A DNA stretch of 39,633 nt from Salinibacterium sp. (GTDB taxonomy: Bacteria; Actinomycetota; Actinomycetes; Actinomycetales; Microbacteriaceae). The stretch is taken from NCBI GenBank assembly GCA_025351795.1, contig JANXVG010000061.1, positions 1 through 39,633 of the forward strand. Direction: 5' to 3'. The notes beneath the pieces are model-generated. The model was given only the letters and a program-made list of their open reading frames with translations. It did not search any database and was not told the origin of the DNA. Below, one piece after another: positions 11,011 to 28,275 of the stretch. Positions within the stretch are counted from its first letter, which is position 1. Each line of letters begins with the position of its first letter. Made by a program: the position numbers and the translations under genes.

Positions 11011-12033
11011 CTATGAGTGAGTGATTCCCCGCCGGTCAGACAGTGGTCGCAGTCCCTTCGTGATCAGTCTGGTCGCCAGGAGCGTGTCGGCGAACTCGCT
11101 ACCGTCGCCGTTGATTCGTGCGAAGAGTCTTTCGGCGGCGCTTCGGCCAAGCGCTACGGTGTCGTAGTCCACAATTGTCACGGGTTGCGGAAGCAGCCGC
11201 GACATCTCAAAATCGTCGAAACCAACGACGTCTATCGTCGTGTTGCGTCGCCACAATTCTTCGACGGCACCGACAGTGGCCCGGTTGTTGCCGCAGAATA
11301 CTGCGGTGGGCGGATCCACTAGTGCGAGCATCCGACTCATCGCAACCATCGCATCATCCGGGGAGTGCACGTCGTTCGCCACAAGGGCCGGATCAAGGTC
11401 GAATCCAGCATTCGTGAGTTGCTCTTGGGCTCCAGCCAATCGCTCGCGCATCGTGTAAATCTCGAGCGAGTCAATGAGTATTGCGATCCGGCGATGGCCA
11501 GCGGTGAGGAGGTGCTCAATCGCGGTTCGCGCCCCACCGCGGTTATCGGCAATGATCGCGTCGGCAGCTAAACCGTAGCCGGGTCGGTCGACGAAGACGA
11601 CTGAGATGCCCAGTTCGACTTCCGGCTTCAGGTAGGAGTGATCCGTGTTAGTGGGCACAACGATGAGTCCACTGACCCGACGTTGGCAGAGATCAAGTGC
11701 GAGGGAGCGTTCGATCTCAGGGCTCTCTTCGGAACTCGCCATGATCACCTGATACCCGTGCGAACGCGCGACCGACACGACGGCGCTGGAAAGTGTCGTG
11801 TAAAAAGTGTTTGAGAGGTCGGCGGTAATCAGTCCGATGGTTTTCGTGCTGCCGCCGGTTCTTAAGCTCGCGGCGACACTGTTTCGTCGAAACCCCAGCG
11901 TCTTCATGGCTGCGTGAACTCGCTCCGTGAGCATCGGATCGACGGAGGAAATTCCGTTGGCTACCCTCGATACTGTTTTAAGGCTGACTTTCGCGTAGGC
12001 AGCAACGTCGTTCATGGTGGGCCGGTCACTCAC
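11011..12033 (-). CDS. LacI family transcriptional regulator
   Basis: The protein has 340 residues. The N-terminal helix-turn-helix reads TMNDVAAYAKVSLKTVSRVANG, typical of LacI/GalR, followed by a periplasmic-binding-protein-like effector domain (IGLITADLSNTFYT near residue 68, then VVGFDDFEMS near 275). It is the last gene of the pfkB-manA-DUF4432-GH38-lacI operon. Its GTG start lies within the GTGAGTGA that also contains the mannosidase stop, so translation is probably coupled; ATG 12015 is the alternative start. The likely target is the palindrome at 18270-18281, giving negative autoregulation, with a mannoside or its breakdown product as inducer (inference). Confidence 0.93.
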   Translation of the reverse strand: MSDRPTMNDVAAYAKVSLKTVSRVANGISSVDPMLTERVHAAMKTLGFRRNSVAASLRTGGSTKTIGLITADLSNTFYTTLSSAVVSVARSHGYQVIMASSEESPEIERSLALDLCQRRVSGLIVVPTNTDHSYLKPEVELGISVVFVDRPGYGLAADAIIADNRGGARTAIEHLLTAGHRRIAILIDSLEIYTMRERLAGAQEQLTNAGFDLDPALVANDVHSPDDAMVAMSRMLALVDPPTAVFCGNNRATVGAVEELWRRNTTIDVVGFDDFEMSRLLPQPVTIVDYDTVALGRSAAERLFARINGDGSEFADTLLATRLITKGLRPLSDRRGITHS

Positions 12034-15000
12034 GATCGAGTCTCAGAGTTTTCAACTCAAAAGGTCGGAAGTCGAGCTCAATGCGACCGCTCGAATCTGA
12101 GACAAACGACTCCTGCGGCGCGCCTAACAGATCGCAGCGCGAAACCCGGCATCCGGCAGCGAGTCCGGCGATCGTTGCACGGCCGCCTCGACCAGAGGCG
12201 TCGTACACCTGGGCGATCACCCCGTTCGCGACGTAACGGAGCGCTGCAATTGCGACCGAACTATTTCCCTCAATGTGTGGTTTCAGAATCGACAGCGTGC
12301 CGCCGCCAGTTGTCCCATCGGCCAGATTTACCTTGAGCGGGTGGTTAAGTCCGGCAGCAATACCCAGCACACCGGCATCTTGCCAGGAGCCGCTGTGCGG
12401 ATAGACGCGTAGGCGGGTGATGTCGATCCGCCCCGCGTCGCTCACCGGATCGGGGTCGTATGCGCTGCGGACGAGTGCGATACGCATCCGTGGGCCGAGA
12501 GCATCGACGGCATATTTAGAGTCATTTGCCACCAGGAGTCCCGCCGTTTTCGAACCCAAGTCTGCCCAGCGCAGCATGGCACCGAGATAGCCATCTGGCT
12601 CGCGTCGCACTGCAGAGAATGGTGACTCGACCCACAAATCGGGGGACGGTAGTCGAGTGCCGAATGACACTCCGAGTGCGGGTACACCACGGTGAGAGCT
12701 ACCGATTTCGCGCCAGTCGACCTCGATTTCGTAGTCGATCCATGGCAGTGCGGCGTAGAAGGTGGTGCGCACAGTGGCCTTCGACCGCAGGAATTCGTGC
12801 CGCGTCTCGAGGACAACACGCACCGGACCCTGTTCGACCACCGTCGTGGATCCTGTACCCAGCAAAACGCGTTCGTAGTCGACATCATCTGCTACCCACG
12901 ACGTCATCGGATGCGGCAGCTCGTGCGTGTACACGAGAGCGCCCAGGCCGAGCTCCGGTCGCAATTGGCGCATACTTTCCGGACTATTGCCGGTTCGCCC
13001 CACGAGCGTTCTGCCACTCGTCTGATCGACCAGAGTGGTCACGATCCCCGAGTCGAGGCGAATCTCGGCGCGAAAAAACTGTGATTCAATCTCAAGAAAG
13101 CCGGGCCGAACATCTGTCGTGACGCGCAGCAAGTCGGCAGTTGTCTGTGACGCGCTACCGACCGTCAACTCGATCGATTCGAACGCACCCAGTTCGGCAA
13201 CGAACACGAGGTCACCATTCGCTGATATCTGGCTCGGGATAACAGAACCGGCAGGATCAGTCACTCCGTTCTGTCCGCCGAGTAGCTCGGCAGCAACGGT
13301 CACCACATCGTGGCGATGCGTGCCGAGCGGATTCGTGACAACAAGTGTTCCCGGGGTCACACGCGACGCGATGGCGGCAAGCGCGCGCGCACTGAGCGCG
13401 CGCGCAAACCGCAGTGCTTCTTGGGCGTCAACCGATTGGTGCGCATACGCCCCAGCTACCGCCGAGCCACCGAGTATGTCGTGGAATTGGTGGTGCAGAA
13501 CGCCGCGCCAAGCAGTGGACAGTTGTTCACCCGGATCAATTCCGGCCATTGCCGCAAGTGTTTCCGCTTCGACGAGCGCGTTTTCGCTCTCGCGATTCAT
13601 CCGTTTTGCATCGGAATGGGTGATGTAGGTGCCTTCGAAAACGTGTTCTGATTCGCCGCGAACCACAGGAAGATTGGGTTTGGTTGCGAGTAAGGCGTGC
13701 ACGTATTCAGAAACCGTGGAACATCGAACGAGGGGAAATACCGCGGACGCATTGAGCGCTCGAATCGTGTCAAGGTCAGCGCGAGTTGGTCCGCCGCCAT
13801 GGTCACCCACGCCGTAGAAGTAGCAAATCTCGGTTATTCCGTTTCGCACTCCGAGGTCGATGATATCGCGAGCGAGCCGCGAAGCGGTCACCGGGCCGAG
13901 GTAAATCGGGGTGCCTACCGTCAGTAGCCTCGAGCCATCATCTCCTTCCCACCAGTAGCACTGCCAGTGCCGTCCCACCTCGGAGAAACCGGCATTTGCA
14001 CGATGGCTGTAGTAGACCTCGGCACCAGCTTGCTTCGCGAGTTGCGGCAGATTACCGCTGTGACCGAATGTGTCTGGGGCGAGAAATACGGTCGGCGAGA
14101 CGCCCAGCCGTTCGCGAGAATACCTGACCCCCTCGATGATTTGACGCGCCTGTGCGGGGCCGCTCGGCAAGTTCACATCTGCTTCCACCCACTGCATCGT
14201 GGCCGGTTCAAGCCGACCCGCTGCGATCAGGTCGACCAAGCGTGTGAAGAGTTGGGGGTGCGACTCCTCAATCTCGCAGTACCCGCGCGCCTGTGAGTGA
14301 GTGAACCTGAACTCCGGATAGTCGTCGAACAATTCAACGACGCTACGCATGTCACGAAAGATGACTTCACGAGTGTCGTCATATGTCCACAGCCACGCGA
14401 GGTCAATGTGTGAGTGTCCGATGCAGTGGATGTGGTAGCCCACGAGTACGGCATCGAGCCAGCGCAGACTATGTGCCAGTCCCTGTGCAGAAGTAGAGCC
14501 CCCAAAGATCTCGGTGAGCTCGGCCGTGGTGAGAATGTCAAAATCAGCGGGAACGGCGTTCGCCGCGATGATTGTTGATGCGACCTGATCATCGGTAGTG
14601 GCGAATTCTCGAGCAAGTTCCAGCCTGGCGAGCGCGAGATCCAAAATATGCCAGCGCGCTCGAAGCGACGGGGTCGTGAACTGTATCGTCACCCCAGTTC
14701 GACCCCAGTCGCCATCGAGCGGCACCGCGGTCGGGAGCACACGGAGCGTAAGTCGACCATTGTGCCCTGCGCGAATTTCGTGCACCACGTCGATGAGAGC
14801 CGGACCGGATGCGACCACGGGCAACGAGTCACCGAATACTCGGGCGCCATCCACGAGAATATCGATGGGCCGCAGCGAGTTGATCGTGAGTTGTAACGGT
14901 TCACCGATGAGAGAAACACCATGCAGGGTTTCGGGCAGTTCCAGATCGACTTCAAGATCAACGCCGACCCCGGCGTGAACCGAGAATTTCTCGAACACTC

Positions 15001-15169
15001 CCACCTGGCGCAAATGATACGTCTCAATTTTCATCGCCACCGGGTGTGGATCTGCGCCGCCGGTTCGCTGCAGCCATTCTGTGGCGACCCATCCCCCCTC
15101 AACCACAAGCGAGGCGGATTCGAGACGAACAAGCGCCTCGTCGATAATCGTCTGCGTAGTGGGGCTCAT
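12026..15169 (-). CDS. GH38 alpha-mannosidase-family glycosidase (divergent, first paralogue)
   Basis: The protein has 1047 residues. The zinc site is in GHSHIDLAWLW (His254, Asp256), and the predicted nucleophile is Asp366 in LAPDTFGHSGNLPQL. HHQFHDILGGS completes the GH38 catalytic set, and a long beta-rich C-terminal domain follows. GH38 enzymes are retaining, zinc-dependent alpha-mannosidases; relatives such as MngB act on mannosylglycerate. There is no signal peptide, so it works in the cytoplasm on imported substrate. It differs strongly from the second GH38 enzyme (25264-28275), suggesting a different linkage or aglycone. ATG 15169 is preceded by AAAGAGG and overlaps the stop of the DUF4432 gene (ATGA). 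The open frame upstream is the shadow of that gene. Confidence 0.92.
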   Translation of the reverse strand: MSPTTQTIIDEALVRLESASLVVEGGWVATEWLQRTGGADPHPVAMKIETYHLRQVGVFEKFSVHAGVGVDLEVDLELPETLHGVSLIGEPLQLTINSLRPIDILVDGARVFGDSLPVVASGPALIDVVHEIRAGHNGRLTLRVLPTAVPLDGDWGRTGVTIQFTTPSLRARWHILDLALARLELAREFATTDDQVASTIIAANAVPADFDILTTAELTEIFGGSTSAQGLAHSLRWLDAVLVGYHIHCIGHSHIDLAWLWTYDDTREVIFRDMRSVVELFDDYPEFRFTHSQARGYCEIEESHPQLFTRLVDLIAAGRLEPATMQWVEADVNLPSGPAQARQIIEGVRYSRERLGVSPTVFLAPDTFGHSGNLPQLAKQAGAEVYYSHRANAGFSEVGRHWQCYWWEGDDGSRLLTVGTPIYLGPVTASRLARDIIDLGVRNGITEICYFYGVGDHGGGPTRADLDTIRALNASAVFPLVRCSTVSEYVHALLATKPNLPVVRGESEHVFEGTYITHSDAKRMNRESENALVEAETLAAMAGIDPGEQLSTAWRGVLHHQFHDILGGSAVAGAYAHQSVDAQEALRFARALSARALAAIASRVTPGTLVVTNPLGTHRHDVVTVAAELLGGQNGVTDPAGSVIPSQISANGDLVFVAELGAFESIELTVGSASQTTADLLRVTTDVRPGFLEIESQFFRAEIRLDSGIVTTLVDQTSGRTLVGRTGNSPESMRQLRPELGLGALVYTHELPHPMTSWVADDVDYERVLLGTGSTTVVEQGPVRVVLETRHEFLRSKATVRTTFYAALPWIDYEIEVDWREIGSSHRGVPALGVSFGTRLPSPDLWVESPFSAVRREPDGYLGAMLRWADLGSKTAGLLVANDSKYAVDALGPRMRIALVRSAYDPDPVSDAGRIDITRLRVYPHSGSWQDAGVLGIAAGLNHPLKVNLADGTTGGGTLSILKPHIEGNSSVAIAALRYVANGVIAQVYDASGRGGRATIAGLAAGCRVSRCDLLGAPQESFVSDSSGRIELDFRPFELKTLRLDRE

Positions 15170-16179
15170 GCTGTCTGCCTCTTTTCGCTGTGATGCGTGG
15201 TGCGTGCGAAAGACAGCGTGAAGCCGGTCTCTATCGTCGCGCCGGGTTGGATCATTGGTGCACCGGCGTTCGGGTGTCGGCGCTGCGGGCCGAACAGGGC
15301 AGTGTTGGCTGGCTCGATGGCTAGCGCCCACCCGCCACTGGCCGGCCACACCCATTCGTACAGCCGCGGTAGCGCGGCTACCGACCACTCGAGTACAGCT
15401 GTGCCGCCATGCTTGGGGATGACGGTCGCGCGGGCGCGCGGGCCACGCGGCCGAACCAACTCGTACACCGATTCCGCGAGGGTCGACGAAGGCGCCGGGA
15501 ATTCAGTGGCGTGCGCGAGATTGAGCGCGTCCTCACGGGGCACGATCGAATCGCACTCGACTTCTACACGTGTGCCTTCATCGAGGAAGGGTGCTCCAAA
15601 ATTCACGTGATAGAGCAGAGCGATAGGAGAGGCCTCGAGTCCCTCGTTGTGGATCCGGTCGATCACCTCAAGCTGGGCCGATCCAGTGCACGCAACAATC
15701 TTCCGATGCACGACCACCCGTCGTCCAAACAACTGCATGCTCGCGATGAGCCCGGAGACAGTGACGACGATCTCGGAGCCAACGAGCTCGCGCATCCAGT
15801 GAACATCTGAAGCGGGAGTGCGATGATGCGAGCCGTGCATGGGAAGGTCGGCGATCGGCGGGCCAATGTTTTCCCACCCGCAGGTGACCAGCATTCCCCC
15901 CGTGAACCGCCCAAGAAAGCTATCAGTCGGGTCGAGCCCCGCACTCTCGCCGCTCGGCAGCGCAGACCGCCAAGCGACCGGGTTTCCTTCGTGCCAGACG
16001 GCTCCGATATCGAGACCACGATCCGGCAAGACGTCAAAACTCAAACCTCCCGCCAAGCGAACCTCGATGACCCGCGCCCCACGGCCAGAATCGGCAAAGT
16101 CGACATATTCACGCACGGTGGCCAAGGCGTCGAGGCGTGAGACTCGTTTATCGGCCAGGTATTCTGCGGCCGATATCAC
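15166..16179 (-). CDS. DUF4432 family protein (aldose 1-epimerase-like)
   Basis: The protein has 337 residues. The DUF4432 family has the galactose mutarotase-like fold. Recognisable stretches are LSFDVLPDRGLDIGAVWHEG, GGMLVTCGWENIGPP, LPMHGSHHRTP and LLYHVNFGAPFLDEG; the conserved histidines and the late Glu are consistent with a sugar-binding epimerase. In a glycosidase operon it probably interconverts anomers of the released sugar or handles a derivative. The start is GTG inside a GTGA overlap with the stop of manA, and its own stop overlaps the mannosidase start as ATGA. The spacing implies strict cotranslation of the operon. Confidence 0.85.
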   Translation of the reverse strand: MISAAEYLADKRVSRLDALATVREYVDFADSGRGARVIEVRLAGGLSFDVLPDRGLDIGAVWHEGNPVAWRSALPSGESAGLDPTDSFLGRFTGGMLVTCGWENIGPPIADLPMHGSHHRTPASDVHWMRELVGSEIVVTVSGLIASMQLFGRRVVVHRKIVACTGSAQLEVIDRIHNEGLEASPIALLYHVNFGAPFLDEGTRVEVECDSIVPREDALNLAHATEFPAPSSTLAESVYELVRPRGPRARATVIPKHGGTAVLEWSVAALPRLYEWVWPASGGWALAIEPANTALFGPQRRHPNAGAPMIQPGATIETGFTLSFARTTHHSEKRQTA

Positions 16180-17198
16180 GACGTCACTCGTGCGGTGTGG
16201 CCGGATGTGACGGGCGGGCGAAGTTCTATCAACTCACCGCGCCCCACGACTTGTGGTCGCTGGGCGGCAAACGGCATAAGGACAGTGCTCCCGCGAACAA
16301 TGTGCATGGGGCCGAAATCTTCCGCGATCAGTGTGAGATCTCCGTCGATCACTATGAGCACTGCGAATCCCTGTTCGAGGCCAAGCGCGCCGTCAACGTG
16401 CGTGCGACCAATCCGAAAAAATTCCTCAGACGCGCGCGCGAGAACAGACGTACCGTGCAGCCCAGAGGTGATCAGACGCGCAATGTCGTCGTCGGATGCC
16501 CCGCGTCGGTCAACTGCCATGAGCGCAGAATCAAAACCCAGACCGAGATGTCCGTTCGCTCGACCATCAAGTTCAAAGTCGCGCCACTCGAGCAGGATCG
16601 AAAGATCTTCCGGTTCTTGGATCTCGGCGAGAAAGACTCCGCGCCCAATAGCGTGCAGGAGGCCCGGGGGAACGAACACAGTGTCACCTTCGTTCACCGT
16701 CACTGCGTGCATAAGACCCAAGAGCGATTCGACGTCCTGGTTTTCTACGAGTCCCCGGAGGTCGGCAGCGCTCACGTCGTGCGTGAGCCCGAGGTAGATT
16801 TCTCCCGCCGCGAGGATATACCAGGCTTCGGCCTTTCCATGTCTGCGACCGAGGTGAGCGTGGGCGAACGCCGCATCGGGATGAGCATGGACCGGCAATC
16901 GCTGGCCAGCGTCGAGCAGCTTTACCAGAATTTTGGTGTCAGCTCCGAATCGATCAACGTGCTTCTCGCCAAGCCACCCGACGGGATTGGCGATGATCTC
17001 ATCGATAAGCCTCCCCCCATCGGGCAGAACCGTTAGCCCGAGCTGGTCTTCGCCGGTGATCGTCGTGGTAGACGCGATCCAGTCTTCCGGCACCCGGTCG
17101 CCGGTGCCACGCTCAGCACGAAAAGCGGCGATCTGCGAGCCACCCCGGTAAAACCGGTTCGGTGGCTGGTTTGACGATAGCAACACTGGTTTCAGCAT
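16176..17198 (-). CDS. manA: Mannose-6-phosphate isomerase, class I
   Basis: The protein has 340 residues and the cupin fold of type I phosphomannose isomerases. The zinc site is read from LPVHAHPDAAFAHAHLG and KAEAWYIL. Later segments VPPGLLHAIGRGVFLAEIQEPEDLSILLEWRDF carry the family signature. It interconverts mannose 6-phosphate and fructose 6-phosphate in the cytoplasm, which fits mannose release by the two GH38 enzymes. A housekeeping manA may exist elsewhere; this copy belongs to the catabolic operon. ATG 17198 is chosen because the family N-terminus (LKPVLLSSNQPPNRFYRGG) starts there, 22 bases after the kinase stop. It ends in a GTGA overlap with DUF4432. Confidence 0.9.
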   Translation of the reverse strand: MLKPVLLSSNQPPNRFYRGGSQIAAFRAERGTGDRVPEDWIASTTTITGEDQLGLTVLPDGGRLIDEIIANPVGWLGEKHVDRFGADTKILVKLLDAGQRLPVHAHPDAAFAHAHLGRRHGKAEAWYILAAGEIYLGLTHDVSAADLRGLVENQDVESLLGLMHAVTVNEGDTVFVPPGLLHAIGRGVFLAEIQEPEDLSILLEWRDFELDGRANGHLGLGFDSALMAVDRRGASDDDIARLITSGLHGTSVLARASEEFFRIGRTHVDGALGLEQGFAVLIVIDGDLTLIAEDFGPMHIVRGSTVLMPFAAQRPQVVGRGELIELRPPVTSGHTARVTS

Positions 17199-17220
17199 GA
17201 TGATTATCCATTCTCGAGGC

Positions 17221-18210
17221 TCAATGACTCGCGAGCGGACGGCCACTCATCCAAGTCGCCGCGGAGATCGCGGCCGTCGCGCAGGCTTCGACAGCGGTCA
17301 TTCCCGACCAGAGAGCGAAGAGCAGTCCGGCGCTGAGGGCGTCGCCCGCGCCGTTTGTCGTTGCGACGGATGTCACATGCTCGGGCGACTGCCAACGTCG
17401 CACACCCTGCCAGCTCTTGGCGAGTCGAGCGAGCGTAGTTCCACCCTTCGAGAGTCGTTCTGCGTCGGCCGCGAGCAAATACATGCCGTTTGATCCGGCC
17501 GAGATGGCAACGACACCCGCCCCCATCTCAACACACTCCGCAGCGAGTCGCTCGACCAAGTCGCGCGAGAATGGCGCGTCGATTTCCAGCGCGGAAGTCA
17601 GGTCGTCGAGGCTCGGGCTGAAGAGATCGACCTCCGAAAGCACGTTGGCTAGGATTCCGAGCCAATCGAGCGAGGCGACCTCAGAGTGCGGGTCAATGAC
17701 GGCTAGGTCGAGCGACGTGGTCGTGCCTGCGTGATGCGCCGCGACGAAGAACTTCTTCAGCGGCGCTCCGCCACCGTCGAGCATTCCGCGCATCAGCGAC
17801 GGGTAGCCAAAATGAACAATCGAGGCGTCACGCAGGTCGACCTGACTCGCGTCAAAAAACGCATTGGCACCGGAGTGATGCAAGAACGTGCGATCGAGCC
17901 CGTCTCCGTGCAGTACAACGCTGTACGACGTCGCGGCACGTGGCGAGATCTGCAAACCTGCCGTCGGCAGACCATTTCGGGTGAGTTGCTCACGAACTAG
18001 GCGACCGAGATCATCGTCGCCGATGGCGCCGGCAAGGCTTACCGGCACGCCGAGTTCAAGAAGTGCACTGCCGGTGTTGGCGACACACCCGCCGAGAGCG
18101 ATCGTCGCTTCGCCCACCTCAACCAGCGCGCCGGGTCGAATCCCGGAGAAGTCGCCGATGGTGGTCGAGATATCGATACAAATGTGTCCTGCAACGGCGA
18201 TATGGGGCAT
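17221..18210 (-). CDS. PfkB (ribokinase) family carbohydrate kinase
   Basis: The protein has 329 residues. The N-terminal strand is HIAVAGHICIDIS; the sugar-binding GGCVANTGSAL matches PfkB signature 1, and TTNGAGDALSAGLLFAL matches signature 2, with the catalytic Asp in GAGD. It phosphorylates a sugar or sugar phosphate using ATP. Next to manA and a divergent class I aldolase, a 6-phosphofructokinase or ketose kinase role is the simplest guess. It heads the minus-strand operon. I prefer ATG 18210, with GGTGG about 11 bases upstream; ATG 18234 in the same frame lacks a ribosome site but cannot be excluded. Substrate is not readable from the sequence. Confidence 0.88.
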   Translation of the reverse strand: MPHIAVAGHICIDISTTIGDFSGIRPGALVEVGEATIALGGCVANTGSALLELGVPVSLAGAIGDDDLGRLVREQLTRNGLPTAGLQISPRAATSYSVVLHGDGLDRTFLHHSGANAFFDASQVDLRDASIVHFGYPSLMRGMLDGGGAPLKKFFVAAHHAGTTTSLDLAVIDPHSEVASLDWLGILANVLSEVDLFSPSLDDLTSALEIDAPFSRDLVERLAAECVEMGAGVVAISAGSNGMYLLAADAERLSKGGTTLARLAKSWQGVRRWQSPEHVTSVATTNGAGDALSAGLLFALWSGMTAVEACATAAISAATWMSGRPLASH

Positions 18211-18259
18211 CTCGGGTATTTCCACCTTCCACATCGCGCGTCGATGCGCGTCGTCATGC

Positions 18260-18288
18260 ACTCTAGCTGGACAACGTTGTCTCGGCAA
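18260..18288 (-). promoter_or_regulatory. Predicted promoter of the pfkB-manA-DUF4432-GH38-lacI operon
   Basis: Read on the minus strand, TTGCCG (plus 18283-18288) and TAGAGT (plus 18260-18265) are -35 and -10 candidates with a 17-base spacer. The palindromic operator lies wholly inside the spacer. Transcription would begin near 18253. Confidence 0.5.
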
Positions 18289-18371: not shown

Positions 18372-19214
18372 GTGTCAGAATTCCGTCTTAACCGTTTGTT
18401 CAATTCACAGTCGGGCCGTGCGCTTGACGTTGCCGTCGATCACGGATTTTTTGGCGAACCGAGCTTCATCGCCGGAATCGAAAACATGAGTTCGGTCGTG
18501 GCGACCCTCGTGCGCGCAAACCCGGATGCCGTGCAACTCACTCTCGGTCAGGCTCGCCTACTCCAGTCCATCCCTGGCAAAGCGAAGCCGTCGTTGGTAC
18601 TTCGTTGCGATATTGCGAATGTCTATGGCAATCCGCTCGATACTCACGTGTTTAGCCACCATGTACCGAACGCAATCGAGGAAGCGGTTCGACTCGACGC
18701 GGTCGCAGTCTGCGTCAACCTCATTCAGCTACCCGGTCGTCCCGAGATCCGTGAGTCGTGCATCCTCTCGATTATGGCGCTGCGCGCCGAAGCGACGCGG
18801 TACGGGATGCCGCTCATGATCGAACCGCTCGTGATGCAGGAGAACAGCAAAGCGGGGGGATACATGGTCGATGGCGACACGCAGAAGATTCTGACCCTCG
18901 TGCGTCAGGCCAGAGAGCTCGGGGCAGATCTCATCAAGGCAGACCCGACCGACAATATCGACGACTATCATCTCGTCGTCGAGGTGGCAGGAGACATTCC
19001 CGTTCTTGTTCGAGGCGGCGGGCGAGTAGACGACGCAACCCTCCTCGACCGCACTGCCGCGGTTCTCGCGCAAGGGGCTTCTGGAATTGTCTATGGCCGA
19101 AACGTGATTCAGCACGACAAGCCGTATGGCATCACGCGCGCACTCATGGCCATGCTGCATGAAAATGTCAGTTCCGAAGACGCGCTCGCGATCGTAACCG
19201 GAAGTGCGTCATGA
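18372..19214 (+). CDS. DhnA/LsrF-type class I aldolase (DeoC/LacD fold)
   Basis: The protein has 280 residues. Family marks are ALDVAVDHGFF near the N-terminus, MIEPLVMQ, the Schiff-base Lys189 in GADLIKADPTD, VLVRGGGR (phosphate binding) and the terminal GIVYGRNVIQHDKP shared with archaeal-type fructose-bisphosphate aldolases and LsrF. It should cleave a phosphorylated ketose or acyl substrate in the cytoplasm. Divergence from a PfkB kinase and manA suggests cleavage of fructose 1,6-bisphosphate or a related sugar phosphate. GTG 18372 is preceded by AAGGAG at ten bases. Its stop overlaps the next start as ATGA. The substrate is inferred from neighbours only. Confidence 0.87.
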   Translation: MSEFRLNRLFNSQSGRALDVAVDHGFFGEPSFIAGIENMSSVVATLVRANPDAVQLTLGQARLLQSIPGKAKPSLVLRCDIANVYGNPLDTHVFSHHVPNAIEEAVRLDAVAVCVNLIQLPGRPEIRESCILSIMALRAEATRYGMPLMIEPLVMQENSKAGGYMVDGDTQKILTLVRQARELGADLIKADPTDNIDDYHLVVEVAGDIPVLVRGGGRVDDATLLDRTAAVLAQGASGIVYGRNVIQHDKPYGITRALMAMLHENVSSEDALAIVTGSAS

Positions 19215-20374: not shown

Positions 20375-20481
20375 CGGCGGGGTGCTCCTGCGACAGCGGG
20401 TAGTGGGCGCGAACGCCGATCTGCTGTCGGAATGCGCCCGCGGGACTAGTGTTCTCGAAGAGGGTGAAAGCCGAGGGTGAC

Positions 20482-21732
20482 ATGACAGAGCAGTTGCGCT
20501 CATCGTCGCGTCGTGGCACGAACCTTCCGGCGATGGGTGATTTTAACCAATCAGTGATTCTGGATGCGATTCGACGTTCACAATCGGGACTCAGCAGGGT
20601 CGAACTCGTGACCGCGACCGGGCTCTCGGCGCAAACAATTTCGAACATCTGCCGGCGTCTCCTCGACCGCGAGTTCATTCGTGAAGCGGGCAAGGAGAGC
20701 ACCGGCCCCGGCAAACCGCGCACCATGCTCGTACTCAATCCTCAGGGTCGCTACGCGCTCGGTGTGCATCTCGACCCCACGGTGATGACCTTTGTCATGC
20801 TCGACCTGACGGGAACCGTTGTTTCGCGTTCTCGCCAACCGACGCCGACCGTTACCGATCCGACGCTCATAATCGACCGTATTGTTCGAGAGCTGACGAA
20901 ACTCATCGACGATTCCGGGGTCGACCGAGAGCGCATCGCTGGCGTCGGTATCGCGGCCCCTGGTCCGATTGACAGCGCCCGCGGCACCGTAGTAGACCCA
21001 CCTCATCTGTCGGGCTGGCACCGTGTTCCCCTACGGGATTCGTTGAGCGAAGCGATCGGACTACCTGCCCTTCTCGACAAAGACGTCACGGCATCCGCGA
21101 TTGCCGAAATGTGGGCTGGGGGCGCGAGTGGCATGGGCAGCTTCGTGTTCTTTTACCTCGGAACCGGTATTGGCGCCGGACTCGTCGTTCACGATGAAGT
21201 CGTGCGCGGAAGTTCCAATAACGCGGGGGAGATCGGGCACATTGTGACGGACCCATTCGGTCCGGCCTGCTTCTGCGGCCTTCGGGGGTGCATCGCAGTG
21301 ACCTGCATGCCGCAGGCACTCGTTCACGAGGCCGAGCAACTCGGTGTTCTTGACGATACAAGAATCGGAAATGACACTCGTGCTGTCGATGACCGGTTCA
21401 CGCAATTGTGCGAGGCCGCGAAGGCTGGCAATACGATCGCGATGGAGATCATTGATCGCTCGGCCATTCGGCTGTCAAAGGCTGTCGCGGTGGTGGCGAA
21501 CATCCTTGATGTCGACAGAGTGGTTTTCGGGGGTCCCTTTTGGTCACGATTGTCTGAGCACTATATGCGTCGGATACCTGGGGTGCTCGAGGAACTGCGG
21601 GCGGCACGAAGCATTCACCACATTACGGTTACCGGAACAGGCGTCGGCGAAGACGTCGCGGCAATAGGTGCAGCATGTCTCGTGCTCGATCGTGCCCTCA
21701 CCCCTAATCCCAAGGCTCTACTCATCGCCTAG
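20482..21732 (+). CDS. ROK family transcriptional regulator
   Basis: The protein has 416 residues. A winged helix (about residues 15-80; VILDAIRRSQSGLSRVELV, LSAQTISNICRRLLDREFI) precedes a ROK sugar-kinase-like domain. GVGIAAPGPID, the ExGH pair in NAGEIGHIV and the zinc motif CFCGLRGC are all present. The aspartate of the usual NDAN catalytic motif is retained in DKDVTA, while the glutamate after the zinc cysteines (GCxE) is missing. It is therefore mainly a sugar-responsive regulator, though residual kinase activity cannot be ruled out. ATG 20482 has GAGGG upstream. It is 107 bases after the dehydrogenase and just before the ABC importer, its likely target. Confidence 0.9.
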   Translation: MTEQLRSSSRRGTNLPAMGDFNQSVILDAIRRSQSGLSRVELVTATGLSAQTISNICRRLLDREFIREAGKESTGPGKPRTMLVLNPQGRYALGVHLDPTVMTFVMLDLTGTVVSRSRQPTPTVTDPTLIIDRIVRELTKLIDDSGVDRERIAGVGIAAPGPIDSARGTVVDPPHLSGWHRVPLRDSLSEAIGLPALLDKDVTASAIAEMWAGGASGMGSFVFFYLGTGIGAGLVVHDEVVRGSSNNAGEIGHIVTDPFGPACFCGLRGCIAVTCMPQALVHEAEQLGVLDDTRIGNDTRAVDDRFTQLCEAAKAGNTIAMEIIDRSAIRLSKAVAVVANILDVDRVVFGGPFWSRLSEHYMRRIPGVLEELRAARSIHHITVTGTGVGEDVAAIGAACLVLDRALTPNPKALLIA

Positions 21733-21811: not shown

Positions 21812-21845
21812 ACATTGACTTCTATATATCTATTCGATGTACTAT
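21812..21845 (+). promoter_or_regulatory. AT-rich promoter/operator region of the ABC importer operon
   Basis: In the 213-base gap before the binding-protein gene there is one sharply AT-rich patch. It contains TTGACT (21815-21820) and TACTAT (21840-21845), a plausible but long-spaced (19 bases) promoter. ACATTGA (21812-21818) and TCGATGT (21834-21840) form an imperfect inverted repeat, six of seven positions, that would bracket the promoter. The adjacent ROK regulator is the obvious candidate binder. Confidence 0.45.
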
Positions 21846-21945
21846 TACCGAGAGACACTGCAGGGCGGCGATAGTTGCTCGCGTGTACCCGGGGAATTCA
21901 ACCGATTGCCCAACTAACAACAGCAATGTGGAGCAAAGGAGCACC

Positions 21946-23310
21946 ATGAAAAACAGAGCCGCAATCGCCATTTCGGTGGTCGCCATAGGAGCCCTGATTG
22001 GACTCACCGCCTGCTCATCTTCTCCGGGCACCAGCGGAGACAAGACGATCAAGGTCACCTACATCAAGACGGATGCATTTACCGCTCTTGACACCCTCTT
22101 CACGAAAGTGAAGACGGCATTCGAGACGGCCCACCCTGGGGTCACCGTTCAACTGCAGCCTGTTTCTGCAACCGACGACGACTACAAGACCAAGCTCGCG
22201 CTTTCACAGCGTTCTGCCGAGACTGCGCCGGACGTCTTCTACGAAGACACGACGAACGTGCGCTCAGACGCCGACGCCGGCTACTTGCTCAAGCTCGACA
22301 GCTACCTCGCAAAATGGAACGACTGGTCGCAGTTCACTGATGCGGCCAAGCAGGCCGGCCAGGGCGACGACGGCAAGATCTATGCGGTGTCGCTTGGTAC
22401 GGACACCAGGGCGATCTGGTACAGCAAGCCCGTACTTCAGGCGGCAGGAATCGCTGTGCCGTGGCAGCCGAAGACCTGGCAAGACGTGCTCAATGCCGCC
22501 CAGAAGATTAAGGCAGCCGAGCCGGGTGTCGTGCCGTTCAACATGTATGCCGGAACAGGAACCGGCGAAGGCTCGAACATGCAGGGCTTCTACGAACTGC
22601 TGTATGGAACAGCGCTCGGCAGCGACGCTCTGTACGACTCGGCAAGTGGTAAGTGGGTCGTCGGCTCTCAAGGCTTCGTCGACTCGCTCACGTTCCTGAA
22701 GACGCTGTACGACCAGCAGCTCGCGTTGACACCAGCCGAAGCGCTCGACCCGAACATCTGGAAAAAGGTGTTCGGCGAGCTGTTTCCCAAGGGCAAACTC
22801 GGTGGAACGGTCGAAGGCTCATACACGCCATCGTTCTGGCAAAAGGGTGGTTCGTTCGAGTGGGCGGGCTACACGACTGACATGGGCGCAACGGCCTTCC
22901 CGACTCAAACCGGTCAGGCGCCTGGCGGAGTCAGCATGTCAGGCGGATGGACTCTCGCTGTGGGCGCCAAGAGCGCGAACTCGCAGCTTGCATTTGACTT
23001 CATGACGATGGCACTCAGCCGGGACAACGCTCTGGCCTACGACAACGCCAACTCGCAGATTGCCGTCAGAAAAGATGTTGCTGCTGACCCGAGTTACGTC
23101 GCGGCTAACCCGTTCGTGAAAGCGGTAACCGACCTGGTGGCGGTAACCCACTTCCGTCCGGCTACGAGCGTCTACAACCAGATTTCTGTCGAAGTTCAGA
23201 AGGCTTCAGAGGCAGTCATCACCGGTAAGATGTCGCCCCACGAGGCCGCAGCGGCGTACGACGTCGCGGTGACCGGCATCGCCACTGCGGACAAGGTCGT
23301 CAAGAAGTAA
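21946..23310 (+). CDS. ABC transporter sugar-binding lipoprotein (family 1)
   Basis: The protein has 454 residues. A signal peptide with positive N-region (MKNR) and hydrophobic core ends in the lipobox LTAC, so Cys23 is lipidated and the protein is anchored outside the membrane. The mature part is a family 1 extracellular solute-binding protein (WYSKPVLQAAGI and PKTWQDVLNAAQKIK are typical). It should capture oligosaccharides, here probably alpha-mannosides, and deliver them to the two permeases downstream. ATG 21946 follows AAAGGAG closely and gives a proper signal peptide; the longer frame from 21883 does not. No ATPase is encoded nearby. Confidence 0.94.
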   Translation: MKNRAAIAISVVAIGALIGLTACSSSPGTSGDKTIKVTYIKTDAFTALDTLFTKVKTAFETAHPGVTVQLQPVSATDDDYKTKLALSQRSAETAPDVFYEDTTNVRSDADAGYLLKLDSYLAKWNDWSQFTDAAKQAGQGDDGKIYAVSLGTDTRAIWYSKPVLQAAGIAVPWQPKTWQDVLNAAQKIKAAEPGVVPFNMYAGTGTGEGSNMQGFYELLYGTALGSDALYDSASGKWVVGSQGFVDSLTFLKTLYDQQLALTPAEALDPNIWKKVFGELFPKGKLGGTVEGSYTPSFWQKGGSFEWAGYTTDMGATAFPTQTGQAPGGVSMSGGWTLAVGAKSANSQLAFDFMTMALSRDNALAYDNANSQIAVRKDVAADPSYVAANPFVKAVTDLVAVTHFRPATSVYNQISVEVQKASEAVITGKMSPHEAAAAYDVAVTGIATADKVVKK

Positions 23311-23358
23311 CGCACCGGCGCACAACGGCACACGGCGACCACAGAACAGGAACAGACA

Positions 23359-24315
23359 ATGGTGACGGCAGATGTGATCGCGACTACTCCGCCGTCCTCA
23401 GACCGGCGGCGGCAAGAACCTCAGGGTTCCGGCCGCCGCCCGGTCAGCAGGCTTGCCAAAGCTCTTCGGATGATTCCGCTGATTCCAGCGATCATCATCA
23501 TGACAATCTTCCTGGCTGGTCCGATAATTTGGTCGTTTTACGGATCATTCACCAATGCGGCCCTGACCGGACCGAACGCAAGTCATAGTTCGTGGATCGG
23601 GTTAGATAACTACGCGAAGCTGCTGCAAGATCCGGTCTTCCCTCTCTCGCTCTGGCTCACCGTTCTCTTTACTCTTGCCTCCGCGGTAATCTCGCAGAAC
23701 GTGCTCGGGTTGGGAATTGCCCTCACCATGACCCGCGCGAACAAGCGACTCGCGTCGCTCATCGGCTCGATAGTCGTCGGTGCATGGATTTTACCCGAGA
23801 TCGTCGCGGCCTTCGTGTGTTACGCGTACTTCAGCAAGAACGGCACTCTGAACCAAATCTTGGCAGCGGTGGGAATGACCGGCCCGAACTGGCTGTACAG
23901 CTTTCCTATGCTCGCTGTCATTCTCGCTAACCTGTGGCGTGGCACCGCCTTCTCGCTTCTCGTGTACCAAGCGGCTCTCAATGACGTGCCTCCGGAGATC
24001 ACCGAAGCAGCCATGATCGATGGTGCCAGCGGTGCCAAGCGACTCGTGTATGTGACCATCCCGATCATCCGCACGACCATCACGACCAACCTGATGCTGA
24101 TCACGTTGCAGACGCTCTCGGTCTTCACGTTGATCTACGTGATGACGGCGGGTGGCCCGGGTAACGACAGCACGACGTTGCCGATTCTCGCGTACAAAGA
24201 AGCCTTCCGGTTCAGCAACATCGGCTACGGAACGGCCATTGCGACCGTTCTGCTGCTGATCGGAGCGGTCTTCTCAATCGTCTATATCCGTGCCGCCCGG
24301 CCAGCGAAGGATTAA
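23359..24315 (+). CDS. ABC sugar permease, MalF-type
   Basis: The protein has 318 residues, about six membrane helices and a charged, Arg- and Pro-rich N-terminal tail of some 35 residues. The EAA loop that docks the ATPase reads ITEAAMIDGASGAKRLVYVT. It is 48 bases downstream of the binding-protein gene and three bases before the second permease, so the three form one importer operon. It belongs to the carbohydrate uptake transporter 1 class, which typically carries di- and oligosaccharides. Confidence 0.93.
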   Translation: MVTADVIATTPPSSDRRRQEPQGSGRRPVSRLAKALRMIPLIPAIIIMTIFLAGPIIWSFYGSFTNAALTGPNASHSSWIGLDNYAKLLQDPVFPLSLWLTVLFTLASAVISQNVLGLGIALTMTRANKRLASLIGSIVVGAWILPEIVAAFVCYAYFSKNGTLNQILAAVGMTGPNWLYSFPMLAVILANLWRGTAFSLLVYQAALNDVPPEITEAAMIDGASGAKRLVYVTIPIIRTTITTNLMLITLQTLSVFTLIYVMTAGGPGNDSTTLPILAYKEAFRFSNIGYGTAIATVLLLIGAVFSIVYIRAARPAKD

Positions 24316-24318
24316 TCA

Positions 24319-25203
24319 ATGACCGTGACTCTTACGCCGATCAAGGCTGTTCGCAAACCCAGCCCGCTGTCGCTGGCCTCGCCTCGGCGAAAAATGTCGG
24401 CAATTCTTGCCAATCTTGGACTCGTCGTCGTCGGCGTGTGTTTCGTTCTGCCGTTGACCTGGGTTCTGCTGGCCGCGTTTGACACTCGTGCGACCTACCA
24501 AACACAAATACCACGGAGTCCCTCACTCGAGAATTTCACGGCAATTCTCACTCCGGAGTTGACCTTCATCCCGCTCCTCAACAGTCTCGTGATATCCCTG
24601 GGAACGGCTGCGCTGACGGTCACCGCCGCCTTGCTCGCCGCTTATCCGTTGTCTCGCTACCAATCGCGCTTCAACAAACCTTTTATGTACACGGTTCTCT
24701 TTGGAACGAGCCTGCCCATCACCGCGATTATGGTGCCCGTCTACAGCCTGTTCGTGCAGCTCAACTTGCTTGATTCGGTACCTGGCACGGTGCTCTTCAT
24801 GGCGGCTTCTTCGCTGCCCATTGCGATTTACATGACGAAGAACTTTATGGATTCGGTTCCCATCAGCCTGGAAGAGGCCGCCTGGATGGATGGCGCGTCG
24901 GCCATGCGTGCTTTGCAGTCAATCATCATCCCGCTCATGCGCCCGGGCATCGCTGTGGTCGCGATCTTTGTATTTTTTCAGGCGTGGGGAAACTTTTTTG
25001 TACCGTTCATACTCTTGTTGTCGCCGAGTAAGCAGCCGGCGTCGATCAGCATCTACACGTTCTTCGGGCAGTACGGTTCGATTGCGTATGGTCAACTCGC
25101 GGCGTATTCACTCATCTACGCGGTGCCGGTCATGGCACTCTACGTACTGGTTTCCCGCGGAATCGGCGGCTCCTTTGCACTTGCAGGAGCGGTAAAGGGA
25201 TGA
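24319..25203 (+). CDS. ABC sugar permease, MalG-type
   Basis: The protein has 294 residues and six predicted membrane helices. The EAA loop is SLEEAAWMDGASAMRALQSI, followed by the family's IPLMRPGIAVVAIFVFFQAWGNFF. It pairs with the MalF-type permease immediately upstream. The operon has no nucleotide-binding subunit; in this transporter class a shared MsmK/UgpC-like ATPase encoded elsewhere usually serves several importers. A 60-base gap with a stem-loop separates it from the second GH38 gene. Confidence 0.93.
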   Translation: MTVTLTPIKAVRKPSPLSLASPRRKMSAILANLGLVVVGVCFVLPLTWVLLAAFDTRATYQTQIPRSPSLENFTAILTPELTFIPLLNSLVISLGTAALTVTAALLAAYPLSRYQSRFNKPFMYTVLFGTSLPITAIMVPVYSLFVQLNLLDSVPGTVLFMAASSLPIAIYMTKNFMDSVPISLEEAAWMDGASAMRALQSIIIPLMRPGIAVVAIFVFFQAWGNFFVPFILLLSPSKQPASISIYTFFGQYGSIAYGQLAAYSLIYAVPVMALYVLVSRGIGGSFALAGAVKG

Positions 25204-25219
25204 CGCAGGTGTTTTGTCA

Positions 25220-25237
25220 CGCGGCAGGGTTGCCGCG
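25220..25237 (+). other. Intergenic stem-loop between permease and GH38 gene
   Basis: CGCGGCA and TGCCGCG form a perfect 7-bp stem with a GGGT loop. There is no T-run after it, so it is not a classic terminator. It may stabilise the upstream mRNA end or lower expression of the glycosidase relative to the importer. Confidence 0.4.
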
Positions 25238-25263
25238 ACGGAGTGTGCGATTGAGGGGCCACC

Positions 25264-28200
25264 ATGCACGATAATCGACTGCTTAGCGAAGCGCGGGTTG
25301 CGCGCTTCGTCGACGAGAGGCTCATGCCGGCTGTCTATCGGCGCACCGCTCCGCTCTCGTTGGCGGCATGGGAAGTCGACGGCGAGCCTGTTGCATTTGC
25401 CATCGCTGCTGGTCAGAACTTTGAGCACTTCGATGTCGGTACGCCATGGGGTAAACCGTGGGGCACGGTGTGGTTTCGGGCGCGTGGTGACGTTCCCGCC
25501 GCGTGGGCGGAGAAGGGAACGCGAGCTGAGATTGTCATCAATCTCGGGGTATCTCCGAGCCTCCCGGGTTTTCAAGCTGAAGCGACCGCCTACGACCGCG
25601 ATGGAAGAATAGTTAAGGCCATCGAGCCGCTCAATGACTATCTTCCCGTCGGTGCCGCGGGAACTCCTGTCGATATTTTCCTCGAAGCCGCCGCCAATCC
25701 AAATATCGCGGGACAGTTCAGCTTTAGCCCCACACCGCTCGGCGATATTGCGACCGCGGGCATCGGCCCGCTCTATCGGGTGGATCGGTTCGAACTCGCC
25801 CAGCTCGACATCACGGTCTGGGAACTCCTTCAAGACGTGAGGGCGCTCAGCGGACTGATGCATGAACTCCCGCTGGCGTTGCCGAGGCGCCACGACCTAC
25901 TCAGAGCACTCAACGCCATGGTCGACACAGTTGACCCACACGATGTTGCAGCGACCGCCGAGGCAGGTCGGGCGGTGCTCGCCCCGGCTCTGGCCAGCCC
26001 CGCATACGCGAGCGCTCACGTACTCGCGGCTATCGGCCACGCTCACATTGACTCTGCGTGGCTGTGGCCGGTACGTGAGACGGTGCGAAAAGTTGCTCGC
26101 ACATTTTCCAACGTCCTGGCGCTGATGGACGAAGACCCTGACTTTACCTTTGCGGCGTCGTCAGCTCAACAGTTTGCCTGGCTGATGCACTTCTACCCCG
26201 AGCTGTACGCGCGGGTCAAAGCGCGAGTCGCTGAGGGCCGGTTTATTCCCGTTGGCGGCATGTGGGTCGAGTCAGACACCAACATGCCTGGCGGTGAAGC
26301 GATGGCGCGACAGTTCGTTATGGGCAAGCGATTCTTCATTGATGAGCTCGGTGTCGAACCCCTCGAAGTGTGGCTGCCAGACTCCTTCGGTTACAGCGCA
26401 GCACTTCCGCAGATCGTCGTTGCGGCCGGTTCTCGATGGTTTCTGACCCAGAAAATTTCCTGGAATGAAACCAACAAGATGCCGCACCACACTTTCTGGT
26501 GGGAAGGAATCGACGGAACTCGGGTCTTCACTCACTTTCCTCCGGTCGACACCTACAGTTCGGACCTCTCGGCCCGCGAACTGGCCAAAGCGGAACGCCA
26601 ATATGCCGAAAAGGGCGCAGGTACGACGTCATTGATTCCCTTCGGGTGGGGCGACGGCGGGGGCGGCCCAACTCGCGAGATGCTTGCCGCGGCCAGTCGA
26701 TCTCGTAACCTCGAAGGTTCCCCGCGCACGATCCTGTCGACTCCGGAGCGGTTCTTCCGCAGCGCTCACGAGGAGTATCCAGACGCCCCCATCTGGTCAG
26801 GGGAGCTCTATCTCGAGTTCCACCGCGGAACGTACACATCGCAAGCACGAACCAAACTCGGCAACCGTCGGAGCGAGCACTTACTGCGCGAAGCCGAACT
26901 CTGGGCGACCGCGGCCACGGTACTTCGGGATGTTCCCTACCCAGGTGATGTGCTCGCGAACGCCTGGCGGATCGTTCTGCTTCAGCAGTTTCACGACATC
27001 CTTCCTGGGTCGTCGATCGCGTGGGTACACCAAGAAGCCGAACGTAACTATGACGAGTTAGCTACGCAGCTCACTGCGCAGATTGAAAAGTCGCTGCATA
27101 TTCTCGCCGGAGATGGTGATGACGAGCTCGTATTTAACGCCGGTCCCTATGCTCGCGATGGTGTGCCAGGCCTCGCGGCCACTCGACGAGCGGCCGAGAG
27201 TTCACCCGCGTCGGTCACTGTCTCGGCTGAGGGTTTGGTCCTCGAAACTACACGCACGCGAATCGTCGTCGACGCGCGCGGGCTGATTGTCTCCTTGTTC
27301 GATCGTCTCGCAGGGCGGGAGGTTGTGCCGTCCGGCCAGCCTGGTAACCTCTTGCAACTCTTCCGCGACACTCCCAACCAGTGGGATGCCTGGGATATTG
27401 ATGAGCACTACAAGCGTGACGGCACTGATCTGGTCGACGTGACGCTGGTGGCGAAAACGGCCGATGGTGCCGGCGTGAGGATTGAGCGTTCTTTCGGCGC
27501 TTCCTCGGTCGTCCAGGAACTGCGAGTGAATGGCGAAAATGGTGCGCTTGATATCACCGTCGCTGTCGACTGGCACGAAACGCAGAAGCTCGTGAAACTC
27601 GCCTTCCCGCTCGATGTTCTTGCCGATCGTGCCGCCTCCGAGATCCAGTTCGGACATGTGTTCCGCCCGACGCACTCGAACACGTCGTGGGATGCAGCTC
27701 GCTTCGAGACCGTCGCCCACCGGTGGGTTCATGTTGGCGAACCCGGCTACGGAGTCGCCATCGCCAACGATGCGACCTACGGTTATGACATCCGGCGTGC
27801 CAGCGAGTCTGGAACGGCTACCTCGACCGTGGTTCGGGCCTCACTATTACGCGCACCGCTCTACCCCGACCCCGAAGCTGACCAAGGGAAGCACCAGTTC
27901 TCGTTCTCTATTCTGCTCGGCGCCACGATCGCCGACGCGGTCGAGGAAGGGTACCGGCTCAATCTGCCTCTTCGCAGCGTTCGCGGTTCGGAAGCGATGA
28001 CGCCATTTCTGACGACGGATAATCCGGCGATCGTGATCGAAGCCGTCAAGCTTGCGGAAGACAAGTCGGGAGACGTCATCGTGAGAATGTATGAGGCGCT
28101 CGGCTCACGCGCGAGGGGCGTGGTCACGGCAGGATTTGACTGGATGTCGGTGGCTGAGACTGACCTACTTGAGCGCACGGTGCCGCCGGTGACCGTGACC

Positions 28201-28275
28201 GGGCACCATAGTGATCGTGGAGTGTTGCTGACCCTGCGACCGTTCCAGATCGTGACTCTCAGATTTACCAGGTGA
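25264..28275 (+). CDS. GH38 alpha-mannosidase (second paralogue, Ams1-like)
   Basis: The protein has 1003 residues, the usual size of bacterial and vacuolar-type cytoplasmic alpha-mannosidases. The N-terminal domain has the family stretch TPWGKPWGTVWFR. Zinc ligands are in GHAHIDSAWLW (His261, Asp263) and the nucleophile is Asp373 in LPDSFGYSAALPQI. WVESDTNMPGGE and QQFHDILPGSSI complete the catalytic domain, and C-terminal beta domains follow. It has no signal peptide and would trim imported alpha-mannosides in the cytoplasm. It is the last gene of the importer operon, with GAGGGG before its ATG. It resembles classical alpha-mannosidases more closely than the paralogue at 12026-15169. Confidence 0.95.
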   Translation: MHDNRLLSEARVARFVDERLMPAVYRRTAPLSLAAWEVDGEPVAFAIAAGQNFEHFDVGTPWGKPWGTVWFRARGDVPAAWAEKGTRAEIVINLGVSPSLPGFQAEATAYDRDGRIVKAIEPLNDYLPVGAAGTPVDIFLEAAANPNIAGQFSFSPTPLGDIATAGIGPLYRVDRFELAQLDITVWELLQDVRALSGLMHELPLALPRRHDLLRALNAMVDTVDPHDVAATAEAGRAVLAPALASPAYASAHVLAAIGHAHIDSAWLWPVRETVRKVARTFSNVLALMDEDPDFTFAASSAQQFAWLMHFYPELYARVKARVAEGRFIPVGGMWVESDTNMPGGEAMARQFVMGKRFFIDELGVEPLEVWLPDSFGYSAALPQIVVAAGSRWFLTQKISWNETNKMPHHTFWWEGIDGTRVFTHFPPVDTYSSDLSARELAKAERQYAEKGAGTTSLIPFGWGDGGGGPTREMLAAASRSRNLEGSPRTILSTPERFFRSAHEEYPDAPIWSGELYLEFHRGTYTSQARTKLGNRRSEHLLREAELWATAATVLRDVPYPGDVLANAWRIVLLQQFHDILPGSSIAWVHQEAERNYDELATQLTAQIEKSLHILAGDGDDELVFNAGPYARDGVPGLAATRRAAESSPASVTVSAEGLVLETTRTRIVVDARGLIVSLFDRLAGREVVPSGQPGNLLQLFRDTPNQWDAWDIDEHYKRDGTDLVDVTLVAKTADGAGVRIERSFGASSVVQELRVNGENGALDITVAVDWHETQKLVKLAFPLDVLADRAASEIQFGHVFRPTHSNTSWDAARFETVAHRWVHVGEPGYGVAIANDATYGYDIRRASESGTATSTVVRASLLRAPLYPDPEADQGKHQFSFSILLGATIADAVEEGYRLNLPLRSVRGSEAMTPFLTTDNPAIVIEAVKLAEDKSGDVIVRMYEALGSRARGVVTAGFDWMSVAETDLLERTVPPVTVTGHHSDRGVLLTLRPFQIVTLRFTR

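Follow-up and report, generated by a model that had tools for sequence, protein, structure and literature searches.

A locus of 12 genes in a 39,633-nucleotide stretch of Salinibacterium sp. DNA (contig JANXVG010000061.1, assembly GCA_025351795.1; "the window" denotes this whole stretch) may be a mannoside cassette, in which an importer and two GH38 glycosidases feed an older, LacI-controlled core that bypasses mannose 6-phosphate, a reading to which we give just short of an even chance. Four genes make up the core: those for a PfkB kinase and a ManA-like isomerase run in one direction, and those for a DhnA-type aldolase and a Gfo/Idh/MocA dehydrogenase (hereafter Gfo) in the other. In the window these genes fall into a leftward group (−) of PfkB, the ManA-like isomerase, a DUF4432 protein, GH38b and LacI, and a rightward group (+) of the aldolase, Gfo, a ROK repressor, a sugar-binding protein, two permeases and GH38a (Table 1). 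The genes named in the original prediction, which was made from the sequence alone, are all present by Pfam and NCBIfam scans (both GH38s, the importer, the ManA-like gene, DUF4432, PfkB, the DhnA aldolase and Gfo). More broadly, some soil and water bacteria probably use such a co-regulated set to take mannose cut from plant or microbial glycans to a ketose, which is split by their own kinase and aldolase.

Loci were collected by aldolase similarity, which recovered 16 of 199 family genomes (the window's own included) and 25 of 394 class genomes, and 10 named loci were added (from Salinibacterium, Leifsonia, Microbacterium, Ruania, Pontimonas, Rhizobium and others); 35 more stretches of ~7 to 20 kb each were fetched. 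We counted 45 loci, leaving out L035, which shares a contig with L023, and L026, whose aldolase is cut; the counted loci are not independent (aldolases are 96–99.6% identical in L024/L025, L027/L028 and L043/L044). Genes in the fetched loci come from a simple open reading frame (ORF) caller, which missed or truncated some of them (the ManA-like one of L123, the one preceding the operator site in L073), and some neighbour proteins were family-scanned, the remainder carrying cluster labels only. The aldolase reached at least 55% identity in 39 of the 45 counted loci (the core loci), and we found Gfo directly downstream of it on the same strand in all 39 of these and in none of the six below 55%. 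Within the family, aldolase and Gfo were confined to the same 16 of 199 genomes (16/16 vs 0/183). PfkB lay within 4 kb in 26 of the 39 core loci and an FGGY kinase in 13 (L031 has both, L084 neither), and a ManA-like gene lay within 6 kb in 24. Since the core recurs in 39 loci, the gene arrangement is beyond chance, and we conclude that the core is a real, specific sugar route. It is probably undescribed; among the titles and abstract openings of the open-licence papers searched, no description of the core pathway was found. The original prediction had proposed a private isomerase–kinase–aldolase–dehydrogenase set and a search of genomes for its conservation; that search bears out a conserved unit, and the opposite outcome did not occur.

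The ManA-like gene tracks the aldolase across genomes, occurring in 14 of 16 aldolase genomes vs 29 of 183 other family genomes. Often it is not beside the aldolase but in another part of the genome: of 19 genomes searched, most of them chosen for want of an adjacent copy, 15 had it. It lies ~12–13 kb off in G011, G120, G175 and G050, outside the stretches first fetched, which bears on L038 and L042–L044; the genome search did not find it in G027, G155, G368 or G427. Lys189 of the aldolase is invariant in 27 rows and coincides in alignment with the lysine of 1w8s and of LsrF, as for the Schiff-base lysine of a class I DhnA aldolase. Aldolases without an adjoining Gfo were kept apart, at 50–54% identity (L030; L086–L088) and 39–41% (L089, L090). 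The L030 aldolase (52%; Rhizobium sp. Leaf371, 829–12248) stands in an operon with an RbsABC-type importer, an FGGY kinase, GlpD-like and GMC oxidoreductases and an aldo-keto reductase, which looks like a polyol route that uses the same aldolase family without Gfo. The 50–54% aldolases of L086, L087 and L088 have clustered neighbours, which in L086 (scanned) include Dak1 and Dak2 domains.

The ManA-like isomerase scored 22.8 bits to the Pfam MPI cupin family (cut-off 27) and 52 to TIGR00218 (cut-off 116.2), with no other Pfam family at E ≤ 0.001. Because both scores are under the cut-offs, we regard it as a divergent relative of ManA and not as a canonical one. It has the fold of type I phosphomannose isomerase (PMI). 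Excerpts of PMC4718643 give the PMI metal and catalytic residues as Gln98, His100, Lys116, Glu118 and His175 (B. amyloliquefaciens numbering). In 17 of 17 ManA-like rows the Gln is replaced by His104, while His106, Lys122, Glu124 and His182 are retained, so that three of four metal ligands and the catalytic Lys are shared with type I ManA; the conserved PMI Arg is absent from the family. The gene coexists with a separate canonical ManA, and with a phosphofructokinase (PFK), in the window's genome. Canonical PMI was above cut-off in 17 of 24 genomes with the core module and near it in two more (G124, G439), and the core therefore fills no gap where canonical PMI is present.

PfkB and the ManA-like protein are a single ORF of 663–678 residues in L027, L028 and L029, and we therefore take the two to work together. 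From genomes without the core aldolase, 20 ManA-like loci were fetched. In L115, L122 and L124 an operon that encodes an importer, a class II ketose-bisphosphate aldolase and an ADP-glucokinase-like kinase ends with the ManA-like gene, and in L121 and L134 this gene follows the divergent DeoR-type gene of such an operon; L120 and L123 also have the importer/class II aldolase/ADP-glucokinase-like operon. In L122 and L124, the two loci scanned, the aldolase is above the TIGR00167 cut-off and the kinase scores 55 bits to ADP-glucokinase, far under the cut-off. The class II aldolase operon is a non-orthologous twin of the core. By sequence comparison, one ManA-like family is joined to three kinase families (PfkB, FGGY and ADP-glucokinase-like) and two unrelated aldolase classes, and the three-step logic would stay constant while the enzymes change, as the class II loci indicate. 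A housekeeping role in GDP-mannose supply was considered for the ManA-like genes of f40 and was not supported; their neighbours look, on inspection of the first 60 residues, like tilS, ftsH and folE, and the four f40 loci examined (L138, L139, L141, L142) showed no phosphomannomutase motif.

The core also shares a specific putative operator. The core's divergent promoter contains the palindrome GACAACGTTGTC, of which the window's genome (2,516,618 bases in 97 contigs, 96.9% complete) has no other exact copy. Of 26 PfkB-type loci, 18 have an exact copy within 320 bases of the aldolase start and 22 a copy with no more than one mismatch; none of the 12 FGGY-type loci has one there. We scanned 24 genomes for exact copies, 12 with the module and 12 without. 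At least one was found in 11 of the 12 module genomes (26 sites, 24 of them on the aldolase-bearing contig; G155 had none), and two of the 12 others had one site each, both within called genes. As a control, the reversed pattern gave no match in the module genomes and two in one other genome (G002). The LacI protein of the locus is the probable reader of this operator.

Counted at up to one mismatch, sites in relatives lie between ManA-like and GH2 genes (L040, L041), before GH130 (L027, L028), 254–371 bases before a distant GH38-like gene (L072, L073), before a LacI gene that is followed by ManA-like (L135, L136), before an RbsB-type binding protein (L074, L075) and before sugar-binding-protein-like genes recognised by size and place beside permeases, with no family scan (L029, L034, L040, L041, L072). 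Directly after Gfo on its strand we found a GH38-like gene in L029, GH42 in L034 and a beta-lactamase-fold esterase-like gene in L040 and L041; genes so placed are probably driven by the core's operator site. The proposed link between core and mannosidase-type genes thus holds up in relatives through the shared operator. In G107, ten sites span two locus copies; behind a site-marked importer lie GH36, an enolase-superfamily dehydratase, a PfkB kinase and a 2-keto-3-deoxy-6-phosphogluconate (KDPG)-type aldolase, and a separate site belongs to a secreted glycosidase-like protein. We read this set as galactomannan use, with galactose presumably taking a De Ley–Doudoroff-like route. A GDSL esterase in G060 has an operator site as well.

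Three further loci bear on the operator. In G029, an apiosidase-like protein (L166:9146–10504, +) starts ~10 bases past an exact site. At L163:9844–10773 (−), a 309-residue ORF has a ManA-like N-terminal-looking start, the rest being LacI, with an operator upstream, and may be a remnant or a fusion. L027 has two divergent proteins of ~700 residues (2595–4721, −, and 4724–6904, +), with homologues in L028 and no Pfam or NCBIfam match; the second ORF as called already includes an exact site (4744) close to its start, which was possibly set too early, and L028 is without such a site. Operator-marked glycosidases and transporters are candidates for pathway members, these two Leifsonia proteins included, as candidate unknown glycosidases.

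The GH38s were part of the gene set in the original prediction, and their membership of the conserved unit is not supported. Window-like GH38s occur in 2 of the 39 core loci (GH2 in 5, GH130 in 2), because of which, on sequence comparison, we take the core to be old and the GH38s to be a local add-on, one of several glycosidase types attached to it. Relatives of GH38a occur in 93 of 199 family genomes, without association with the aldolase (9 of 16 aldolase genomes vs 84 of 183 others), and GH38 was accordingly rejected as the defining gene; in eight aldolase genomes besides the window's, GH38a lies on other contigs than the aldolase, among the matches listed. Distant GH38-like genes also occur in L029, L072 and L073. 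Both window enzymes score above the GH38N cut-off, are the only such matches in the window's genome, and retain H-x-D, P-D-[TS]-F-G and G-D-x-G-G-G-P stretches, which we take to be the GH38 catalytic motifs. By eye, their N-termini suggest cytoplasmic enzymes, with no leader seen in GH38b. A mannosylglycerate-like substrate, one of those the original prediction offered, was rejected as unlikely: the GH38s score 60 and 74 bits against the NF007331 (MngB) equivalog cut-off of 1138. Bifidobacterium N-glycan and mannan loci with GH38 combine an ABC importer, a ROK regulator and cytoplasmic GH38s, as the window does; unlike them, the window couples these to a private kinase–aldolase–Gfo core. The Salinibacterium relative of GH38a at L021:16850–19860 (+) was called as two ORFs (748 and 255 residues), either interrupted or a sequencing fault.

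The chemistry that follows is our inference from these genes, down to the identity of the sugar, where it is phosphorylated and at which point Gfo acts. Mannosides would be imported by the ABC importer, and the GH38 alpha-mannosidases would free alpha-D-mannose in the cytoplasm. The DUF4432 protein, probably an aldose mutarotase, would mutarotate it, the ManA-like enzyme would convert the free aldose to the ketose (fructose), and PfkB would add a phosphate to the ketose, with C1 as the most likely position. The resulting ketose 1-phosphate would then be split by the DhnA aldolase into dihydroxyacetone phosphate (DHAP) and a C3 aldehyde (D-glyceraldehyde), and NAD(P)-dependent Gfo would oxidise or reduce this aldehyde or a nearby intermediate. 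A GlcD-like FAD/FeS oxidase lies in or beside the core or regulon of L034, L036 (behind an operator site), L039 and L163 (it scores best, though under cut-offs, to glycolate oxidase and D-2-hydroxyglutarate dehydrogenase models), which points to a 2-hydroxy acid as a product; either glycerate or lactate would fit. If the proposal holds, the scheme resembles liver-type fructolysis (ketohexokinase and aldolase B) in passing from a PfkB-family ketose kinase to a class I aldolase that yields DHAP and glyceraldehyde, and differs from it in an unrelated aldolase subfamily, a bacterial operon and mannose as the start. It is possible, with the balance somewhat against it, that this is an undescribed phosphomannose-independent mannose glycolysis (mannose to fructose to fructose 1-phosphate to DHAP and D-glyceraldehyde) in which Gfo is a strict partner, distributed among several Actinomycetia families, genomes of 1.2–1.5 Mb included, and re-invented with exchanged kinases and aldolases around one ManA-like family. 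It would be a second bacterial way to burn mannose, with its own isomerase, kinase and aldolase and no mannose 6-phosphate, and the labels mannose-6-phosphate isomerase, FBP (fructose-bisphosphate) aldolase and inositol dehydrogenase would mislead for the core families.

Several observations weigh against this bypass. Plain mannose needs no dedicated aldolase and could be used by way of mannose 6-phosphate. Canonical PMI was not found in five module genomes of 1.2–1.5 Mb (G104 and four of f33), which keep the core aldolase, and in these the role of PMI might fall to the ManA-like enzyme. Beside the class II version no gene is labelled as Gfo, which is odd if Gfo clears the aldehyde, and the Gfo model resembles ring-sugar dehydrogenases; together these suggest that the Gfo step may precede the aldolase. 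GACAACGTTGTC was not found at the window's importer–GH38a promoter. Nor are the linked genes all mannosidases, since GH42, GH3, an apiosidase-like protein and a GDSL esterase are among them: the L034 GH42 is probably in the core operon because it lies directly after Gfo, and L042–L044 have GH3 nearby, without an operator site. The best PDB matches of the L029 GH2, which belongs to one cluster with the GH2s of L040 and L041, are beta-mannosidases, but the NCBIfam hits of three GH2 cluster members are weak and to beta-galactosidase/glucuronidase models (best 42 bits, far under cut-offs), and the GH130 match to a beta-1,2-mannosidase model is also under the cut-off (67 of 550).

Among the alternatives, the core might serve a modified mannose (e.g. 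6-deoxy-D-mannose, or O-methyl or pyruvylated mannose), giving DHAP and a modified aldehyde, such as lactaldehyde from D-rhamnose, handled by Gfo and in some loci by the GlcD-like oxidase. The dedicated aldolase and dehydrogenase, from which the original prediction had argued for a modified mannoside, are easiest explained if C6 is barred from normal glycolysis, and the four loci with a GlcD-like oxidase agree with this. The argument is weakened, and a modified sugar is not needed, because the toolkit linked to the core in relatives (beta-mannosidase-like GH2, GH130, GH36 and esterase-like genes) suits ordinary mannans and galactomannan; moreover, the neighbour proteins that were scanned, a part of all neighbours, included none recognised as a demethylase, a ketal hydrolase or a sulfonate gene product. 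On balance we consider a modified mannose unlikely.

Duplicate glycolysis through mannose 6-phosphate, with PfkB making mannose 6-phosphate or fructose 1,6-bisphosphate, the ManA-like enzyme acting as PMI and DhnA as fructose-bisphosphate aldolase, is distinctly unlikely. It would account for the PMI fold, for the kinship of the aldolase with archaeal FBP aldolases and for the five small genomes in which canonical PMI was not found. It sits poorly with the canonical ManA and PFK of the window's genome, the canonical PMI of most module genomes and the altered Gln and Arg of the ManA-like family, and it leaves Gfo unexplained. Less likely again is that Gfo acts first, on a glycoside or sugar ring, by oxidation or as an NAD-dependent glycosidase such as GH188 or GH109, with the aldolase cleaving a keto-sugar phosphate. 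The ring-sugar likeness and the class II loci point this way, but the Gfo gene comes after that of the aldolase, the two overlapping by 4 bases, as expected of an aldehyde enzyme, and the recurring glycosidases would be redundant beside a Gfo glycosidase.

The likeness in plan to the sulfo-Embden–Meyerhof–Parnas (sulfo-EMP) pathway (YihS/YihV/YihT/YihU; E. coli, Arthrobacter) that the original prediction saw is a fair one. Both devote an isomerase, a PfkB kinase, a PF01791 aldolase and a nicotinamide dehydrogenase to a dedicated sugar, YihV being the PfkB kinase and YihT the PF01791 aldolase in excerpts of PMC9594981, and the swapping of kinase and aldolase types in the core resembles the exchange of enzymes between lineages described there for sulfo-EMP vs sulfo-EMP2. 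That the locus is itself a sulfo-EMP cluster is very improbable: its kinase and aldolase share the Pfam families of YihV and YihT and Gfo-fold sulfoquinovosidases exist, but its isomerase is ManA-like and belongs to neither PF07221 (YihS) nor PF02952 (SqvD), the families given in the same excerpts, its dehydrogenase is a Gfo, its glycosidases are mannosidase types, and no sulfolactaldehyde reductase or dehydrogenase (the genome was not searched for one) or other sulfonate gene was recognised in the 12 cassette genes. Sulfoquinovose or another sulfosugar was likewise disfavoured on the isomerase family, as compared with excerpts of PMC9594981, PMC8873060, PMC10755693 and PMC12421959. Inositol catabolism (iol) was set aside as well, as none of IolB, IolD and IolE was recognised in the 12 cassette genes; the rest of the genome was not searched.

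Table 1. Features of the Salinibacterium sp. cassette, in window coordinates
Feature	Position	Strand	Evidence and remarks
LacI-family regulator	11011–12033	−	Pfam LacI/Peripla_BP; 54–67% relatives beside core in L021, L031, L032, L040
GH38 glycosidase b, divergent	12026–15172 (ORF 12026–15388)	−	Pfam GH38N/mid/C; GH38N 196 bits; 61% relative in L021; start set near 15172 instead of 15388 because of overlap with DUF4432
DUF4432 protein	15166–16179	−	Pfam DUF4432 223 bits; present in 7/39 core loci
ManA-like (type I PMI fold) putative aldose–ketose isomerase	16176–17198 (ORF 16176–17246)	−	
PfkB-family sugar kinase	17221–18234 (ORF to 18288; likely start 18234 or 18210)	−	Pfam PfkB 92.6 bits
Putative operator palindrome GACAACGTTGTC	18270–18281	no strand	Divergent promoter of core, 91 bases before aldolase start
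DhnA/DeoC-type class I aldolase	18372–19214	+	Pfam DeoC 104 bits
Gfo/Idh/MocA dehydrogenase	19211–20374	+	57 bits; 4-base overlap with aldolase
ROK-family repressor	20449–21732	+	Pfam ROK and winged helix; 80% relative in L021
ABC importer sugar-binding protein	21883–23310	+	Pfam SBP_bac_1; lipobox-like LTAC in translation (by eye)
ABC importer permease 1	23359–24315	+	Pfam BPD_transp_1
ABC importer permease 2	24319–25203	+	Pfam BPD_transp_1
GH38 glycosidase a, full four-domain set	25264–28275	+	Pfam GH38N/mid/C/C2; 319 bits

The few-base overlaps at DhnA/Gfo, ManA/DUF4432 and GH38b/LacI fit co-transcription, and the ROK repressor is probably the local regulator of the importer–GH38a genes. 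Rfam and tRNA scans of the window gave no matches, and promoter and terminator scans gave results at or under chance level. The G+C content is 59–61% across 10–28 kb of the window vs 61.5–66% on both flanks, and at the thresholds used none of the aldolase, Gfo, ManA-like and GH38a genes was found in the three same-genus genomes examined; a mobile cassette fits both observations. Right after the cassette, at 28621–33055 (−), lie alpha/beta hydrolase, ketoacyl-synthase, KAS III and acyltransferase genes of the fatty-acid synthesis type, which are likely chromosomal backbone.

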